NCBI GenBank assembly: GCA_002692055.1
Contig: NZJW01000008.1
Span: 7,997 to 41,558 of the forward strand
From: Candidatus Pelagibacter sp.
Lineage (GTDB): Bacteria > Pseudomonadota > Alphaproteobacteria > Pelagibacterales > Pelagibacteraceae
Direction of reading: 5' to 3'
Length of the DNA stretch: 33,562 nt
A program made the position numbers and the translations under genes. Under the pieces are notes generated by a model. That model had not been told where the DNA came from, made no database searches, and saw only the letters and a program-made list of their open reading frames with translations. Position 1 is the stretch's first letter; every line of letters starts with the position of its first letter. Shown here in pieces: positions 3,001 through 16,801 of this stretch.

Positions 3001-4079
3001 AACTTGATGATGAAAAAATTAAGAATCTAACGTTAAATGATATTTTTAAGTTAAAATTAGATGAAAATAAATCTAATGATGATCTTATTGCTTTAAAAGA
3101 ACAGTATAACGAAGCCAAAAAAGACATTCAGTCTAGGTTCGAAGATAAAGTTGATAAAATTGAAAGAGGTGACGAATTGCTGCCTGGTGTTATGAAGATG
3201 GTCAAAGTATTCATTGCAATGAAAAGGAAGTTGCAACCAGGTGATAAAATGGCGGGAAGACATGGTAATAAAGGAGTGATAAGCAGAATTGTACCTGTAG
3301 AGGACATGCCATATATGGAAAATGGTAAACCTGTCGATGTTTGTCTAAATCCTCTTGGAGTTCCTAGTAGAATGAATGTGGGTCAAATACTTGAAACTCA
3401 CTTAGGCTGGGCATGTTCAGAATTAGGAGAAAAAGTTAACAAATTATTTAATGAATATACGTCAAAACAAAAAACTTTAGAACAGGTGACGAGTTCATTA
3501 GGAAAAATTTATAATAAAGATGAAATTGATAAGGAAATTAAAAAATTAAAAGAGGACGAAATTAAAGATTTACTAAAAAATTTGTCAAAAGGTGTTCCAA
3601 TAGCAACACCAGTTTTTGATGGTGCAAGTGTTGAGGATGTTACTAATATGCTTAAATTTGCAGAGCTTCCTGAAAGTGGACAAACAAAACTTTATGATGG
3701 AAGAACAGGTGAAAAATTTGATAGAGAAATAACCGTAGGTATAATTTATATGTTAAAGTTGTATCATATGGTTGATGATAAAATTCATGCCAGATCAACG
3801 GGACCATATAGCTTGGTCACTCAACAACCCTTAGGTGGTAAAGCTCAGTTTGGAGGACAAAGGTTCGGTGAAATGGAAGTCTGGGCTTTAGAAGCTTATG
3901 GTGCAGCTTATACTTTACAAGAAATTTTAACTGTTAAGTCCGATGATGTTGCAGGAAGAACAAAAGTTTATGAAACAATTGTTAAAGGTGACGATGATTT
4001 CGAATCTGGTATACCTGAATCTTTCAATGTTTTAGTCAAAGAAATAAGATCTTTAGGTCTAAATTTGGAGTTAAATTAA
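3..4079 (+). CDS. rpoB: DNA-directed RNA polymerase subunit beta
   Basis: 1358 aa ORF; conserved rifampicin region [58 protein letters not shown]; followed directly by rpoC. Confidence 0.99.
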
Positions 4080-7000
4080 TGAGTAAAGAATTAACAAATC
4101 TATTTTCCAAAAAGGTAAATAAGCAAGATTTTTCTAAAATTAAGATTTCAGTAGCTAGCCCAGAAAAAATTAAATCATGGTCTTTTGGTGAAATAAAGAA
4201 ACCTGAGACTATAAATTATAGAACATTTAAACCAGAAAAAGACGGACTATTCTGTGCAAGAATTTTTGGACCGGTCAAAGACTACGAGTGCTTGTGTGGA
4301 AAATATAAAGGTATGAAATTTAGGGGGATTATTTGTGAAAAATGCGGAACTGAGATTACCAAATCTAATGTTAGAAGAGAAAGAATGGGTCATATTGAAC
4401 TTGCAACGCCAGTTTCACACATTTGGTTTTTAAAGTCTTTACCTAGTAGGATCGCATTATGTCTAGATTTAAAACTTAAGGATTTAGAAAAGGTTTTATA
4501 TTATGAAAATTTTATTGTTATAGAACCAGGTCTAACCAAATTGGAAAAAAATCAAATAATAACTGAAGATGAGTTTCTTAAAGCACAGGATGAATATGGT
4601 GAGGATCAATTTTCCGCAGGTATAGGTGCTGCAGCTATCAGAGAATGCCTTACTAGTATAGACGTTGAAACTCAAAGAGACAAACTCAAAGAAGATATAA
4701 AATCAATAAATTCAAAAGTTATTTTAGAAAAAACAATTAAAAGATTAAAATTAATGGAGTCATTTGCAACATCTGGAAATAAACCTGAATGGATGGTTTT
4801 AACTACTCTGCCAGTAATTCCGCCCGAATTAAGACCTTTAGTACCCCTTGATGGTGGAAGATTTGCAACATCAGATCTTAATGATTTATATCGTAGAGTA
4901 ATAAATAGAAATAATCGTTTAGGTCGATTAATGGATTTACGCGCTCCTGATATAATTGTTAGAAATGAAAAAAGAATGCTTCAAGAATCTGTAGATGCGT
5001 TATTTGATAATGGCAGAAGAGGTAGGGTAATAACTGGAACCGGTAAAAGACCTTTGAAATCCTTAGCCGAAATGCTCAAAGGAAAGCAGGGAAGATTCAG
5101 ACAAAACTTACTAGGCAAAAGAGTAGATTACTCAGGTAGATCAGTAATTGTTGCTGGCCCTGAACTAAAATTACACCAATGTGGTTTACCAAAAAAAATG
5201 GCACTTGAGTTATTTAAGCCATTTGTATACGCTCGTTTAGACAAATTAGGTTATGCCACAACAATTAAACAGGCTAAAAAAATTGTTGAAAAAGAAAAAC
5301 AGGAAGTTTGGGATATATTAGATCACGTTATTAGACAACACCCAGTACTGTTAAACAGAGCTCCCACACTTCACAGGTTAGGCGTTCAAGCATTTGAACC
5401 AATTTTAACTGAGGGAAAAGCAATACAACTTCACCCACTGGTTTGCGCCGCTTTTAATGCTGACTTTGACGGCGATCAAATGGCTGTTCATGTTCCGCTA
5501 AGTATTGAAGCCCAATTAGAAGCTAGGGTTTTAATGATGTCTACAAATAATATTTTGCATCCTGCGAACGGGAAACCAATTATAGTTCCATCACAGGATA
5601 TGATTTTAGGAATTTATTATTTGTCCCAAGAGCCCATTGGTAACAAAGATGATAAGCCTCAGGGTTATTTTTTAGATAACGATCAAATTATGCTAGCTCT
5701 AGAAAATGATAATATAAATATACATACAAAAATAGTTTCAAGGTTTGAAACCAAAGATGAAAATGATAACAAAGTATTTTCAAAGTATACTAGTACTGCT
5801 GGTAGATTTTTATTAGCGAATATCCTTCCGAAAAACAAAAATATAAAATTTGATTTAGTAAATAGAGTATTATCAAAAAAACAAATTTCAGAAGTAATAG
5901 ATGTAGTTTTTAGATTTTGTGGTCAAAAAGAAACAGTAGTTTTTTGTGATAAAATTATGTCCTTAGGTTTTAAAAATGCCTTTAAAGCAGGAATTTCTTT
6001 TGGAAAAGATGACTTAATTATTCCGGACAGTAAAGAAAAGATTATTGGTGATGCAAAGAAAATGGTTGAGGAATACGAGAACCAATACGCCGAAGGATTA
6101 ATTACCAGAGGTGAAAAATATAACAAGGTAATTGATCAGTGGTCTAAATGTACAGATAAAATTGCATCTGAAATGATGGAAATTATATCTAGCCCACAAA
6201 AAGACAAAGACGGAAGAGTAAAATCTAATTCAGTATTTATGATGGCTGACTCAGGAGCCAGAGGTTCTCCTGCACAAATGAAACAATTAGCTGGCATGAG
6301 AGGCTTGATGGCTAAACCATCTGGAGAAATAATAGAGACACCAATAATTTCAAATTTTAAAGAAGGTTTAACTATTTTAGAATATTTTACCTCTACACAT
6401 GGTGCTAGAAAAGGCCTAGCTGATACAGCTTTAAAAACTGCAAACTCCGGTTATTTAACACGAAGATTATGTGATGTTTCACAAGATGTTATAGTTACCA
6501 AGAAAAATTGCGATTGTGGATCAAATAAATCCATTACCATCTCTGAAATAATAGAGGGTGGAAATGTGGTTGTAAGTTTAGCAGAGAGAGCTTTAGGAAG
6601 ATATTCTGCTGAGGATATAAAAAATGCATTAACGGGAGAAATTATTGTTAAAAAAAATCAGATGATAGACGAGTTTAAGTGTGACGATTTAGAAGCTGCC
6701 GGAGTAAAATCTTGCAAAGTTTATTCTGTTATGACCTGTGAAAGTAAGCAAGGTGTATGTTCGAGATCATATGGAAGAGATCTAGCGAGAGGTATGCCAG
6801 TTTCTGTGGGAGAATGCGTTGGAATGATTGCTGCTCAGTCAATTGGTGAACCCGGAACACAATTAACAATGAGAACTTTCCACGTTGGAGGCACAGCCCA
6901 AATAAAAGATGACTCATCTATTGCCGCGCCAGACACAGGTATTTTAAAAATTTCAAATAAAAATCTTGTAGAGGACTCAAGTAAAAATCTAATAATAATG

Positions 7001-8263
7001 GGAAGAAATATTGAACTAACACTTGAAAAAGATGGTGTAGTTATTGCATCCTTTAAAGTCCCATATGGTTCAAAATTATATGCTAAACCAGATGATCAGA
7101 TTAAAAAAGGACAGAAAATCTGTGACTGGGATCCTTACACAGTTCCGGTAATTGCAGAGACTTCTGGTATTGCAAACTACGTCGATTTAGTTGATGCAGT
7201 ATCAATTGCTGACAAAACTGATGAGGCAACTGGAATTTCATCGAAGATAGTCTTAGACTGGAGATCACAGTCAAAGAATTTAGATTTAAAACCAAGAATA
7301 ACTTTAAGAGATAGCAAAGATGAAGTAGTTTTAAAAGCTGATGGAAATGAAGCTAGATATTATTTATCACCAGAGACAATTTTATCAGTAGCTGATGGCG
7401 ATAAAGTAAACGCAGGCGATGTGTTAGCAAGACTACCTAAAGCAACCTCTAAAACAAAAGATATAACAGGCGGTTTACCAAGAGTTGCTGAATTGTTTGA
7501 AGCAAGAAAACCTAAGGATGGAGCAATAATTGCTGAAAATGATGGTGAAATAATTTTTGGCAAAGAAATTAGGGGTAAACAAAAAATTACCATTAAAGGA
7601 AAAGATGGATTAGAATCTAATTATCTAATTCCAAAAGGTAAACAAATTAACTATAACCCTGGAGAAAAGATTTCCAAAGGTGAATACTTGTTAGATGGTA
7701 GTCCCGCAACGCATGACATTTTAAGAATACTTGGTATAGAATCATTAACAGATTATTTTGTTAATGAAGTTCAAGATGTTTATCGCCTTCAAGGTGTTGT
7801 GATAAATGACAAGCATATTGAAGTTATTTTAAGACAAATGTTAAGAAAGTTAGAAGTAAAAAATCCAGGAGACAGCGAAATGCTTAGTGGTGAAATAGTA
7901 GATAAAATTGATGCTAAAATAATCAATGAAAAATTAAAATCTGAAGGTAAAAAAGAAATTGAATTTGACCCTGTTATGCTTGGGATTACAAAAGCTTCTC
8001 TACAAACAAAATCTTTTATTTCAGCTGCATCATTTCAAGAGACCACAAGGGTACTTACTGATGCATCATTAAAAGGTAAGTCAGATGATTTAATGGGTCT
8101 TAAGGAAAATGTTATTGTAGGAAGGTTAATTCCTGCCGGAAGTGGACAAAGTAGACAGAAATACAATAAAATTGCCAAAGATAGAGACCTTGAGCTTGAA
8201 AACAAGATGGCATCAGAGACAATTAGTTCTGAAGCTGAAGAACAGCCTGTAGAGGCTCAATAA
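4079..8263 (+). CDS. rpoC: DNA-directed RNA polymerase subunit beta'
   Basis: Catalytic [13 protein letters not shown]-terminal zinc finger CLCGKYK...CEKCG; 1-nt overlap (TAATG) with rpoB. Confidence 0.99.
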
Positions 8264-8309
8264 AGCAGAAAAATTTAGTAAATTTTAAGTGAATTCGCTA
8301 AGTGATATG

Positions 8310-8337
8310 TTGACGTTCATCAAATAATCAGTATTAA
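8310..8337 (+). promoter_or_regulatory. candidate sigma70 promoter for the rpsL-rpsG-fusA (and downstream) operon
   Basis: TTGACG (8310-8315), 16-bp spacer, TATTAA (8332-8337), inside the 167-bp rpoC-rpsL gap. Confidence 0.6.
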
Positions 8338-8360
8338 TAGCCCACTTTTTAAGGTAGCAC

Positions 8361-8401
8361 GTAAGGCTAATGTTGGCTTTAAACTACTACCAACAACTTA
8401 C
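8361..8401 (+). promoter_or_regulatory. candidate structured 5' leader hairpin upstream of rpsL
   Basis: Nested complementarity GTAAG(8361-8365)/CTTAC(8397-8401) and TGTTGG(8371-8376)/CCAACA(8390-8395); 13-nt apical loop, asymmetric internal loop (5 nt/1 nt). Confidence 0.4.
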
Positions 8402-8430
8402 CAAAACCTATTCTTAAAAAGATTATAATT

Positions 8431-8802
8431 ATGCCAACTATAAACCAGTTGTTAAAAAAAAAGCGAGTTAAACAGTTAGTAAGGAACAAAGTTCCTGCTC
8501 TGCAAGCATGTGCATTAAAAAGAGGAGTATGTACTAGAGTTTATACAACTACTCCAAAAAAACCAAATTCGGCTTTGAGAAAGGTTGCCCGAGTAAGACT
8601 CTCAAATGGCTTTGAGGTTACAGCATATATTCCTGGAGAAGGACATAATTTGCAAGAACACTCAGTGGTAATGATTAGAGGTGGTAGAGTTAAAGATCTA
8701 CCAGGCGTAAGATATCATGTTGTAAGAGGCTTATTAGATACTCAAGGTGTATCAAATAGGAAACAACAAAGATCAAAATATGGAGCAAAGAGGCCTAAGT
8801 AA
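8431..8802 (+). CDS. rpsL: 30S ribosomal protein S12
   Basis: [11 protein letters not shown]...[19 protein letters not shown]...[17 protein letters not shown]. Confidence 0.99.
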
Positions 8803-9277: not shown

Positions 9278-11356
9278 ATGACTAAAGTTTTTTCAAAAGA
9301 TAAATATAGAAACATAGGTATCATGGCTCACATAGATGCAGGAAAAACAACAACTACAGAACGAGTTCTTTATTATACAGGTAAGTCTCATAAGATAGGT
9401 GAAGTACATGATGGCGCCGCTACTATGGATTGGATGGAGCAAGAACAGGAAAGGGGAATTACAATTACCTCTGCAGCCACTACTTGTTTTTGGAAAGATC
9501 ATAGAATAAACATTATAGATACTCCTGGACACGTAGATTTCACTATTGAGGTTGAAAGATCTTTAAAGGTATTAGATGGAGCCGTTGCTGTTTTTGACGG
9601 TGTTGCAGGTGTCGAGCCCCAATCAGAAACGGTTTGGAGACAGGCAGATAAGTACAAGGTTCCAAGGATGTGCTTTGTAAATAAATTAGATAGAACAGGA
9701 GCAGATTTTTATCGCTGTGTTGATATGATAAAGGAGCGTTTAGGAGCAACTCCTTTAGTTTTACAAATTCCAATTGGAGCCGAAGCAGAACTTAAAGGTG
9801 TAGTTGATTTAGTAAAAATGAAAGGCCTTGTTTGGGAAGCTGAAGATCTTGGTGCAAAATTTAATGAAGTAGAAATTCCAGTAGATTTGAAGGAGAAAGC
9901 TGAAAAATATAGAAAAGATCTCATTGAAACAGCTGTGGAACAAGACGAAAAATTAATGGAAGCTTATCTGGATGGCAAAGAAATAAGTGAGGATGATCTT
10001 AAAAGATGCATTAGACAAGGTACCTTAAATTTTAGTTTTGTTCCAGTTTTGACTGGTTCGGCCTTTAAAAACAAAGGGGTACAGCCTTTATTAGACGCGG
10101 TAGTTAATTATCTTCCGAGTCCACTAGATCTTAAAGAAATCAAAGGTACTGAACCTGGCACAGATCAAGAGCTAATAAGAAAATTTGATGATAGCGAACC
10201 ATTTTCTGCATTAGCTTTCAAGGTTGCAAACGACCCGTTTGTCGGAACTATTACCTTTATAAGAATATATTCTGGAAAACTAATTTCTGGTACTGGAGTG
10301 TTAAATTCTACCGCAGACAAAGAAGAGAGAATTGGAAGAATGCTTTTAATGCATGCCAATGATAGAGAGGATATAAAAGAGGCAAGCACAGGAGATATTG
10401 TTGCATTAGCAGGTTTAAAACATACAATTACAGGCCATACATTATGCAACAAAAATGATCCAATTATTTTGGAACCAATGGAATTTCCTGATCCTGTGAT
10501 TGAAATTGCAGTGGAACCAAAAACTAAGGGTGACCAAGAAAAAATGGGCGAGGCATTACAGAGGTTAGCGAAAGAAGACCCTTCGTTTAGAGTTACATCT
10601 GACAACGAGTCTGGCCAAACGATTATTAAAGGTATGGGTGAATTACACTTAGACATTATTGTTGATCGCATGAAAAGAGAATTTAAAGTTGACGCAAATA
10701 TTGGAGCACCTCAAGTTGCTTATAGAGAAACAATTGAGAGATCAGCACAAGTTGATTATATACACAAAAAACAATCCGGTGGTTCCGGTCAATTTGCAAG
10801 GGTAAAAATAACAGTTGAGCCTCAAGAGCCAGGTAAAGGTAGAGAGATTGAGAGTTTAATTAAAGGCGGGGCAATACCAAAAGAATTTATCCCAGGTGTT
10901 GAAAAGGGCATAGAAGGAGTTGCAGATTCAGGAATTTTAGCAGGATTCCCTGTTATCGATTATAAAGTTCAAATAATAGATGGCTTACATCATGACGTAG
11001 ATTCAAGTGTTCTAGCTTTTGAAATTGCAGCAAGAGCTTGTTTTAAAGAAGCTTGTCAAAAAGGCGGCTTAAAACTTCTCGAACCAATTATGAAAGTAGA
11101 AGTGGTCACTCCAGAGGATTATATGGGTGATGTAATTGGTGATCTCAATAGCAGACGTGGGCAAGTTGGTTCAACTGACAAAAGAGGAAATGCAACAGTA
11201 ATTAATGCTAACGTTCCTTTAGCAAATATGTTTGGCTATGTTAACAATTTAAGATCAATGTCACAAGGAAGAGCACAATATACGATGCAATTTTCTCACT
11301 ATGAAAAAGTACCACAAAATGTTCAAGATGAAGTAACAAAAAAATTAGCAGGATAA
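9278..11356 (+). CDS. fusA: elongation factor G
   Basis: [38 protein letters not shown]. The ORF track starts at a GTG (9266) inside rpsG; the ATG at 9278 after AGGTGG is the better start. Confidence 0.98.
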
Positions 11357-11359
11357 TAA

Positions 11360-11668
11360 ATGGATCAACAGAGTATTAGAATTAGATTACAGGCATACGA
11401 TCATAAGATACTTGATCAGTCCACGGAAGAAATTGTAAATACTGCAAAACGGACTGGCGCGCAAATAAAAGGCCCAATTCCCCTTCCTACAAAAAAAGAA
11501 ATTTACACAGTATTACGTTCACCACATATTGATAAAAAAAGTAGGGAACAGTTCGAAACAAGAACACATAAAAGATTAATTGATATAATGGAACCAACCC
11601 CAGCTACAATTGAGGCATTAATGAAATTAGATTTAGCTGCAGGTGTTGATGTGGAGATTAAAATATAA
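11360..11668 (+). CDS. rpsJ: 30S ribosomal protein S10
   Basis: [17 protein letters not shown]...[29 protein letters not shown]. Confidence 0.99.
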
Positions 11669-15589: not shown

Positions 15590-16005
15590 TGTTACAACCT
15601 GCAAGAACAAAGTTCAGAAAAGCTCATAAGGGAAGAATAAAAGGAAAAGCTACAAGGGGCGCATCCTTAAACTTTGGCTCTCATGGTCTTCAAGCTATAG
15701 AACCAGAAAGAATAACTTCAAGGCAAATAGAAGCTGCAAGAGTTGCTTTAACAAGGCATATGCAAAGAAAAGGAAGAGTGTGGTTAAGAATATTCCCAAA
15801 TATACCGGTATCTAAAAAGCCAATAGAAGTACGAATGGGAAAGGGTAAAGGCTCACCTGAATTTTGGGTCTGTAGAGTAAAGCCAGGACGTATAATTTTC
15901 GAAATCGATGGAGTAAATGATTCTGTAGCAAAAGAGTCATTTGATAGGGCTGCTTCGAAGCTTCCTATAAAGACTAAAATAATTAAACGGAATACGAATA
16001 TATAG
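15589..16005 (+). CDS. rplP: 50S ribosomal protein L16
   Basis: [19 protein letters not shown]...[25 protein letters not shown]. Confidence 0.99.
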
Positions 16006-16006
16006 A

Positions 16007-16201
16007 ATGAAAACTTCTGAATTAAAAAAACTATCAGTCACTCAGCTTGAGAAAGAGTTAACAAATTTTAAAAAAGAAAAGTTTAATCTAAGATTTCAAA
16101 AAGTTAATTCTCAAGTTCAAAATACCACTAGAGTACGAACAGTGAGAAGATCAATTGCAAAGATTTTAACGTTCTTAAATCAGAAAAAGAAAGATAATTA
16201 A
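16007..16201 (+). CDS. rpmC: 50S ribosomal protein L29
   Basis: 64 aa; LSVTQLEKELTNFKKEKFNLRFQKVNSQVQNTTRVRTVRRSIAKI. Confidence 0.96.
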   Translation: MKTSELKKLSVTQLEKELTNFKKEKFNLRFQKVNSQVQNTTRVRTVRRSIAKILTFLNQKKKDN

Positions 16202-16431
16202 TGACAAAAAGAGTTTTAACAGGAAAAATAGTGAGTTCAAAAAATAAGAACACTGTTGTCATCCAAGTAGAGAGAAAATTCAGGCATCCGGTATTAAAAA
16301 AAGTTCTTAAACGCTCAAAAAAATATCATGCTCATTATGAAACTGGAGATTTCAAAGTAGGTGATCGGATAAGGATAATTGAAAGCAAACCAATTTCTAA
16401 ATTAAAAAAATGGAAGGTTTTAATTAATTAA
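16201..16431 (+). CDS. rpsQ: 30S ribosomal protein S17
   Basis: [42 protein letters not shown]...[18 protein letters not shown]. Confidence 0.98.
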
Positions 16432-16432
16432 T

Positions 16433-16801
16433 ATGATACAGGTTCAAACCGAAATGGAAGTCGCTGACAACACTGGAGCAAAAAGAATTGAGTGTATAAA
16501 GGTTCTCGGTGGTTCTAAAAGAAGATATGCCAGCGTCGGTGATATTGTTGTTGTTAGTATAAAAGATGCTATGCCCAAAGGAAAAGTAAAGAAAGGCGAT
16601 GTACATAAAGCTGTAATAGTGAGAACAAAAAAACAAATTCAAAGAAATGATGGGTCATCTATAAAATTTGACAAAAATGCTGCTGTTTTAATAACGGCAA
16701 ATGGAGAACCTATAGGTACGAGAATATTTGGTCCAGTTACTAGAGAACTTAGAGATAAAAGGCATATGAAAATTATTTCCCTTGCTCCGGAGGTCTTGTA
16801 A
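16433..16801 (+). CDS. rplN: 50S ribosomal protein L14
   Basis: [57 protein letters not shown]. Confidence 0.99.

Follow-up and report, generated by a model that had tools for sequence, protein, structure and literature searches.

A hairpin conserved in the rpsL leader of SAR11 bacteria and its apparent place in a wider alphaproteobacterial leader family

The rpoC-rpsL gap and its promoter

The DNA analysed here (33,562 nucleotides, hereafter the window) is a genome fragment of a SAR11 bacterium (Pelagibacterales) related to HIMB114, with whose rpsL the rpsL of the window shares 98 % identity. In SAR11 bacteria, which reach very high abundance in the ocean, few regulators are known. According to the open reading frames, rpoC (4079-8263) is followed by a gap of 167 nt (8264-8430) and then, on the plus strand, by rpsL (8431-8802), which encodes S12 and heads a fused ribosomal-protein cluster. 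An earlier note on this DNA had singled out the gap within a segment where genes usually abut or overlap. The ORFs confirm its coordinates and bear out the tight packing: rpsL and rpsG share 1 nt (8802), and two small genes occupy the stretch 16005-16433. fusA and rpsJ lie 3 nt apart, without tuf between them (window 11356-11360). The window's own assembly (G000) yielded no 23S rRNA, so we regard it as incomplete.

The gap was also said to carry a promoter, and this description is exact: a -35 element TTGACG (8310-8315) is separated by a 16-nt spacer from a -10 element TATTAA (8332-8337), the whole spanning 8310-8337 on the plus strand. The pattern is common to the order, since TTGANN-N16-TANTNN occurs in 120 of 128 Pelagibacterales leaders, compared with 4 % of shuffled leaders. 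It is usually followed by a G+C-rich stretch, which in the window (TAGCCCAC) comes directly after the -10 element. A simple sigma-70 scan of the window did not report this promoter because the final T is missing from the -10 element. From the promoter position, transcription is predicted to start near 8344 (zone 8341-8346, plus strand, about 7 nt past the -10 element), just 5' of the first paired base, which would give a leader of about 85-90 nt. The gap would serve the rpsL-rpsG-fusA-S10-spc cluster as its promoter and 5' untranslated leader, a reading that we grade jointly with the complete explanation given below and regard as evenly poised.

A conserved hairpin and a competing state in SAR11

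Folding of the single window sequence is not significant, and it is the comparison of leaders that decides. The minimum free energy (MFE) of the window leader is -15.7 kcal/mol, against -13.1 ± 2.9 kcal/mol for shuffled sequences (z -0.91), and 36 of 200 shuffles fold as well as the leader itself.

In the alignment of SAR11 gaps, a common layout runs from stem A through an internal loop of 2-3 nt, an invariant G, stem B (U...A) and A-A-C to the 3' strand of stem A, and this hairpin was found in every SAR11 genus sampled. In the window, on the plus strand, stem A is formed by GGUAG (8353-8357) and CUACC (8387-8391), both strands being identified by covariation, and the GG of the 5' strand is common to a further helix, P1. 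Stem B pairs UAAGGC (8362-8367) with GCUUUA (8376-8381) and contains covarying pairs. It is opened by an invariant G-U (8361-8362; 134 of 134 rows of the class-wide set below), with G8361 opposite the invariant C8384, and is followed by the internal-loop motif A-(A/G)-A-C, which reads AAAC in the window (8381-8384) and occupies invariant or near-invariant columns of alignments A1-A3. The layout that defines the family (stem A, internal loop, G-U...A-R-A-C and stem B, upstream of rpsL) is thus present at 8353-8391.

The pairing of this hairpin is well maintained among SAR11 leaders, with 98.2 % of cells paired compared with 89.9 % after shuffling and at most 56 % when the partner strand is slid. 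Its covariation is 0.383, against 0.223 for shuffled data (0 of 500 shuffles), and stem A shows U-A/A-U and A-U/G-C exchanges. The stem cells of 102 SAR11 sequences comprise 992 Watson-Crick, 94 G-U and 4 A-C combinations, and the ratio of G-U to A-C points to the rpsL-sense strand as the RNA. A model built from SAR11 (R1), whose training data contain the copy in the window, gave one strong match on the window's genome, at window 8351-8393 with 54.2 bits, the next best having an E-value of 0.59. Comparison of the leaders shows in this way a predicted sense-strand RNA hairpin that is conserved across SAR11.

The earlier note had placed a different structure in the foreground, a nested hairpin in which GTAAG (8361-8365) pairs with CTTAC (8397-8401) around TGTTGG (8371-8376) and CCAACA (8390-8395), and had listed GGTAG/CTACC (8353-8357/8387-8391) second, as a mutually exclusive pairing able to form a switch. 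All of these coordinates are exact, and the relative standing of the two is reversed. Covariation across rpoC-rpsL gaps, which the note had proposed as a check, appears in GGTAG/CTACC and the inner hairpin but not in the nested hairpin, which has no compensatory support and whose outer stem is lost in L087, which belongs to the same genus as the window, and also in the genus g12. It is the pairing listed second that is kept throughout SAR11 and has counterparts elsewhere in the Alphaproteobacteria. The nested hairpin spans 8361-8401 on the plus strand (GUAAG/CUUAC with UGUUGG/CCAACA); it is part of the MFE fold and represents the window's local form of a competing state. That two mutually exclusive pairings exist and could form a switch is supported by the comparison of 5' and distal arms in SAR11, and the suggested structured leader for a ribosomal-protein cluster by the conserved promoter together with the covarying hairpin.

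In the competing state (state 2), the 5' arm (8345-8365) pairs with a distal arm (8397-8421, plus strand; assigned from duplex energies), whose 3' end lies 9 nt before the rpsL AUG. In the window this state consists of P1, whose 5' strand (CUUUUUAAGG, 8345-8354, plus strand) pairs with 8412-8421, of UAG (8355-8357) with CUA (8408-8410), and of the nested hairpin as its upper part. P1 is taken from the MFE fold and from the comparison of own with cross pairing. The duplex of 5' arm and distal arm averages -15.2 kcal/mol within a leader, -11.0 kcal/mol between genera and -8.7 kcal/mol with shuffled sequences, and own pairing exceeds cross pairing in each of the 12 genera. The same count was obtained for P1 with stem A included, and the comparison was uninformative when the 5' strand ended before stem A. 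For the upper arm alone, own pairing wins in 7 of 12 genera, which is weaker evidence. The two energies in the window are close (-15.7 for the competing state vs -15.0 for the conserved hairpin plus P1), and in most other SAR11 genera the competing state is the minimum of the naked RNA. The lower part of P1 is able to form in both states. Since the 5' arm pairs alternatively with the distal arm, we describe the leader as bistable, and the comparison shows, more weakly than for the hairpin, that two mutually exclusive states would exist in the SAR11 leader. We make this claim for SAR11 only, because in leaders from outside SAR11 own pairing of the distal arm did not clearly exceed cross pairing.

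The hairpin in other Alphaproteobacteria and known leader families

The same layout is visible by eye before rpsL in other Alphaproteobacteria. Within the 350 nt preceding rpsL, a pattern scan reached p<=0.05 for 21 of the 39 alphaproteobacteria and for none of the 21 other bacteria. An independent pattern scan took in another 133 alphaproteobacterial genomes, in most cases a single one from each family. Scores of 10 or more were found in 32 of them, compared with 1.7 expected from shuffles, and p<=0.05 was reached by 46 forward, 3 reverse-complement and 9 reversed sequences.

A second model, R2, was made from 27 of these alphaproteobacterial leaders, none of them from SAR11; the seed sequences had been picked by the pairing scan, which biases R2's own pairing statistics. 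R2 matched 63 of 289 whole alphaproteobacterial genomes at E<=0.1, E-values from these models being rough. Fifty matches were inspected, of which 47 lay just upstream of rpsL, 1 upstream of rpsJ and 2 elsewhere (E>=0.03). Among 41 matches outside the seed set, covariation was 0.489 vs 0.206 after shuffling (0 of 500), in a test that leans toward R2's structure because R2 itself had selected and aligned the matches. Across the class, a set of 134 rows, likewise positioned by the pairing rule, had 97.7 % of cells paired compared with 78.3 % when shuffled, and the closing G-C pair was present in 134 of 134 rows, as was the U-A pair with which stem B begins. These comparisons show what is, as judged from pairing and position, the same predicted hairpin in front of rpsL in many more Alphaproteobacteria. 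In the genome G537 (L389, 1501-1539), a strong R2 match lies upstream of rpsJ, and the hairpin is missing from the rpsL gap; a relocation of the leader within the str-S10 region may have taken place there.

The window is connected to the wider family by a chain, because R2 does not score the window itself: it gave no significant match there. It did match the sister family of Pelagibacterales (E about 1e-3) and, weakly, three SAR11 genera (L164, E 0.09; L161, 0.5; L163, 1.2), in which R1 marks identical coordinates (E 1e-3, 0.013 and 3e-7). Through the sister family and these three genera, homology of the window hairpin to the alphaproteobacterial family is likely, though not proven. R1, being too narrow, found nothing upstream of rpsL in other Alphaproteobacteria, and a merged model of SAR11 and non-SAR11 leaders was dropped after automatic alignment had placed stem A in two registers. 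On this comparative evidence, the window leader would seem to be a member of a leader family that occurs across Alphaproteobacteria and had not been recognised before.

Known families were compared as well, as the earlier note had advised before anything here was called new. The closest is RF01823, whose motif Meyer et al. 2009 (PMC2704228) detected in Candidatus P. ubique and in marine metagenomes only. In Pelagibacter genomes it scores 96.3, 94.1, 93.5 and 84.6 bits, in the rpoC-rpsL gap and on the rpsL strand. The window leader has the same location, between rpoC and rpsL, and scores 21.9 bits (E 0.12-0.26) on the minus strand, below the gathering cut-off of 37 bits, so membership was rejected. 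This sub-threshold match (window 8279-8404) is probably a chance one, helped by palindromic stems, since the Pelagibacter copies lie on the rpsL strand and the G-U/A-C counts favour the sense strand. Among the genomes tested, the RF01823 model matched Pelagibacter-type copies only, missing other SAR11 genera and the other Alphaproteobacteria tested, and in 14 other leader regions (12 from further alphaproteobacteria and two from the sister family) no Rfam family reached its cut-off. The two structures are alike in a stem B hairpin followed by A-A-A-C, and P1 of RF01823 appears to use the distal-arm pairing. RF01823 is reported as a three-stem junction. Of its stems, the window folds contain P2 (stem B) and a P1, and no P3 was seen in them. 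We read RF01823 as a derived Pelagibacter form of the wider family. Rfam spells it 'rspL' and types it as an sRNA gene, though it lies on the mRNA strand within the rpsL leader.

Other described systems resemble the leader in part. Naville and Gautheret 2010 (PMC2965389) predicted attenuators in rpsL leaders of other lineages, likewise structured and with alternative folds; these are terminators, whereas none was found in 8200-8500 of the window, and the same study reported neither a globally conserved element of rpsL leaders nor any sequence shared with the Pelagibacter motif. Eckert and Weinberg 2020 (PMC7247131) presented 20 ribosomal leaders of the same general kind, namely conserved RNA upstream of ribosomal-protein genes; the main text names no rpsL (S12), S7 or S10 leader, and among its alphaproteobacterial entries are L2 and L17. 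In another alphaproteobacterium, Rhodobacter sphaeroides, an RNA derived from the rpsL 5' UTR has been described (PMC7866481), an example of a transcript from this region. We therefore call the ribosomal leader a known kind of element and the wider alphaproteobacterial rpsL hairpin new within the open-licence literature.

Possible mechanism and alternative explanations

We consider feedback by a ribosomal protein on translation to be the likeliest mechanism, the bound protein being a candidate. A ribosomal protein of the cluster, when in excess, would bind the conserved hairpin and read its invariant internal loop. Pairing beside the start codon would then limit 30S loading, with either state as a possible off state. 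S12 translation would fall, and the genes behind would follow by translational coupling because they abut or overlap. A simple scheme in which a protein binds the hairpin and represses does not predict the preference of the naked RNA for the competing state in most SAR11 genera. The complete explanation, which combines promoter, conserved hairpin, bistability in SAR11 and ribosomal-protein feedback, could in our judgement as easily fail as hold. The leader probably helps to set the amount of translation machinery made.

S7, the regulator of the str operon in E. coli (PMC10931766), would be the first guess for the ligand, because of that role and because its usual rpsL-rpsG site is impossible here, the genes overlapping. 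The E. coli repressor site likewise would serve feedback on the same operon; it lies between rpsL and rpsG, whereas in the window the RNA precedes rpsL. An E. coli-type site was rejected for the window, as the 1-nt overlap at 8802 leaves no structured intercistronic region. R1 and R2 gave no convincing match in a 16S region from the same genus, so rRNA mimicry, as sought in that region, offers no hint of the ligand.

The same leader could control translation through another ligand, such as L4, S10, S12 or an elongation factor, a possibility raised by the G537 hairpin before rpsJ, the first gene of the S10 group, in a genome whose rpsL gap lacks it; with S7 known to regulate the E. coli str operon (PMC10931766) and the intercistronic site impossible in the window, we think this rather unlikely. 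A leader that binds no regulatory protein is also unlikely, and somewhat more so. It would be a structural or stability element, or a ribosome standby site on an mRNA without a Shine-Dalgarno sequence; the hairpin would shield the 5' end, and the AU-rich sequence at the start would stay accessible. Such a role would suit a leader with no known ligand, the ability of lower P1 to form in both states, and the persistence of a 5'-UTR-derived RNA in Rhodobacter (PMC7866481), but the invariant G-U...A-R-A-C loop in very divergent leaders resembles a recognition site, and the matches are almost confined to rpsL.

Transcription attenuation would assign the two mutually exclusive folds to a terminator and an antiterminator, in keeping with the attenuators predicted upstream of rpsL in other lineages (PMC2965389). 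The distal arm is, however, followed by AUUAUAAUU and the start codon with no U-run, and no intrinsic-terminator-like site was found in 8200-8500; attenuation by an intrinsic terminator was rejected, and we hold attenuation to be very improbable. That the gap is a promoter only, with leader pairing a by-product of AT-rich sequence, would agree with the non-significant folding of the single sequence. It is contradicted by the covariation, the strand asymmetry and the genome-wide specificity and location of the matches, and its probability is close to nil.

Ribosomal-protein feedback, extended to the class, leads to a broader and more tentative proposal, which we would not back at even chances: a single ancestral rpsL leader would control the translation cluster across Alphaproteobacteria via a candidate protein that reads the G-U...A-R-A-C loop, and the SAR11 form would be a strand-exchange switch over the fused str-S10-spc cluster. 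If this is true, the 5' arm in SAR11 chooses between a protein-binding hairpin and the arm beside the start codon, and a single switch ahead of some two dozen genes for translation would give these bacteria an important point of control. A class-wide hairpin would unify the published rpsL-leader findings (PMC2965389, PMC2704228) and would offer laboratory-tractable alphaproteobacteria for ligand discovery.

A further observation concerns the same upstream regions. In 16 of 133 alphaproteobacteria (L229-L361), the 300 nt immediately preceding rpsL contain the anti-Shine-Dalgarno-like heptamer TCCTCTG, against 2.5 expected, and its reverse complement occurs in 1.
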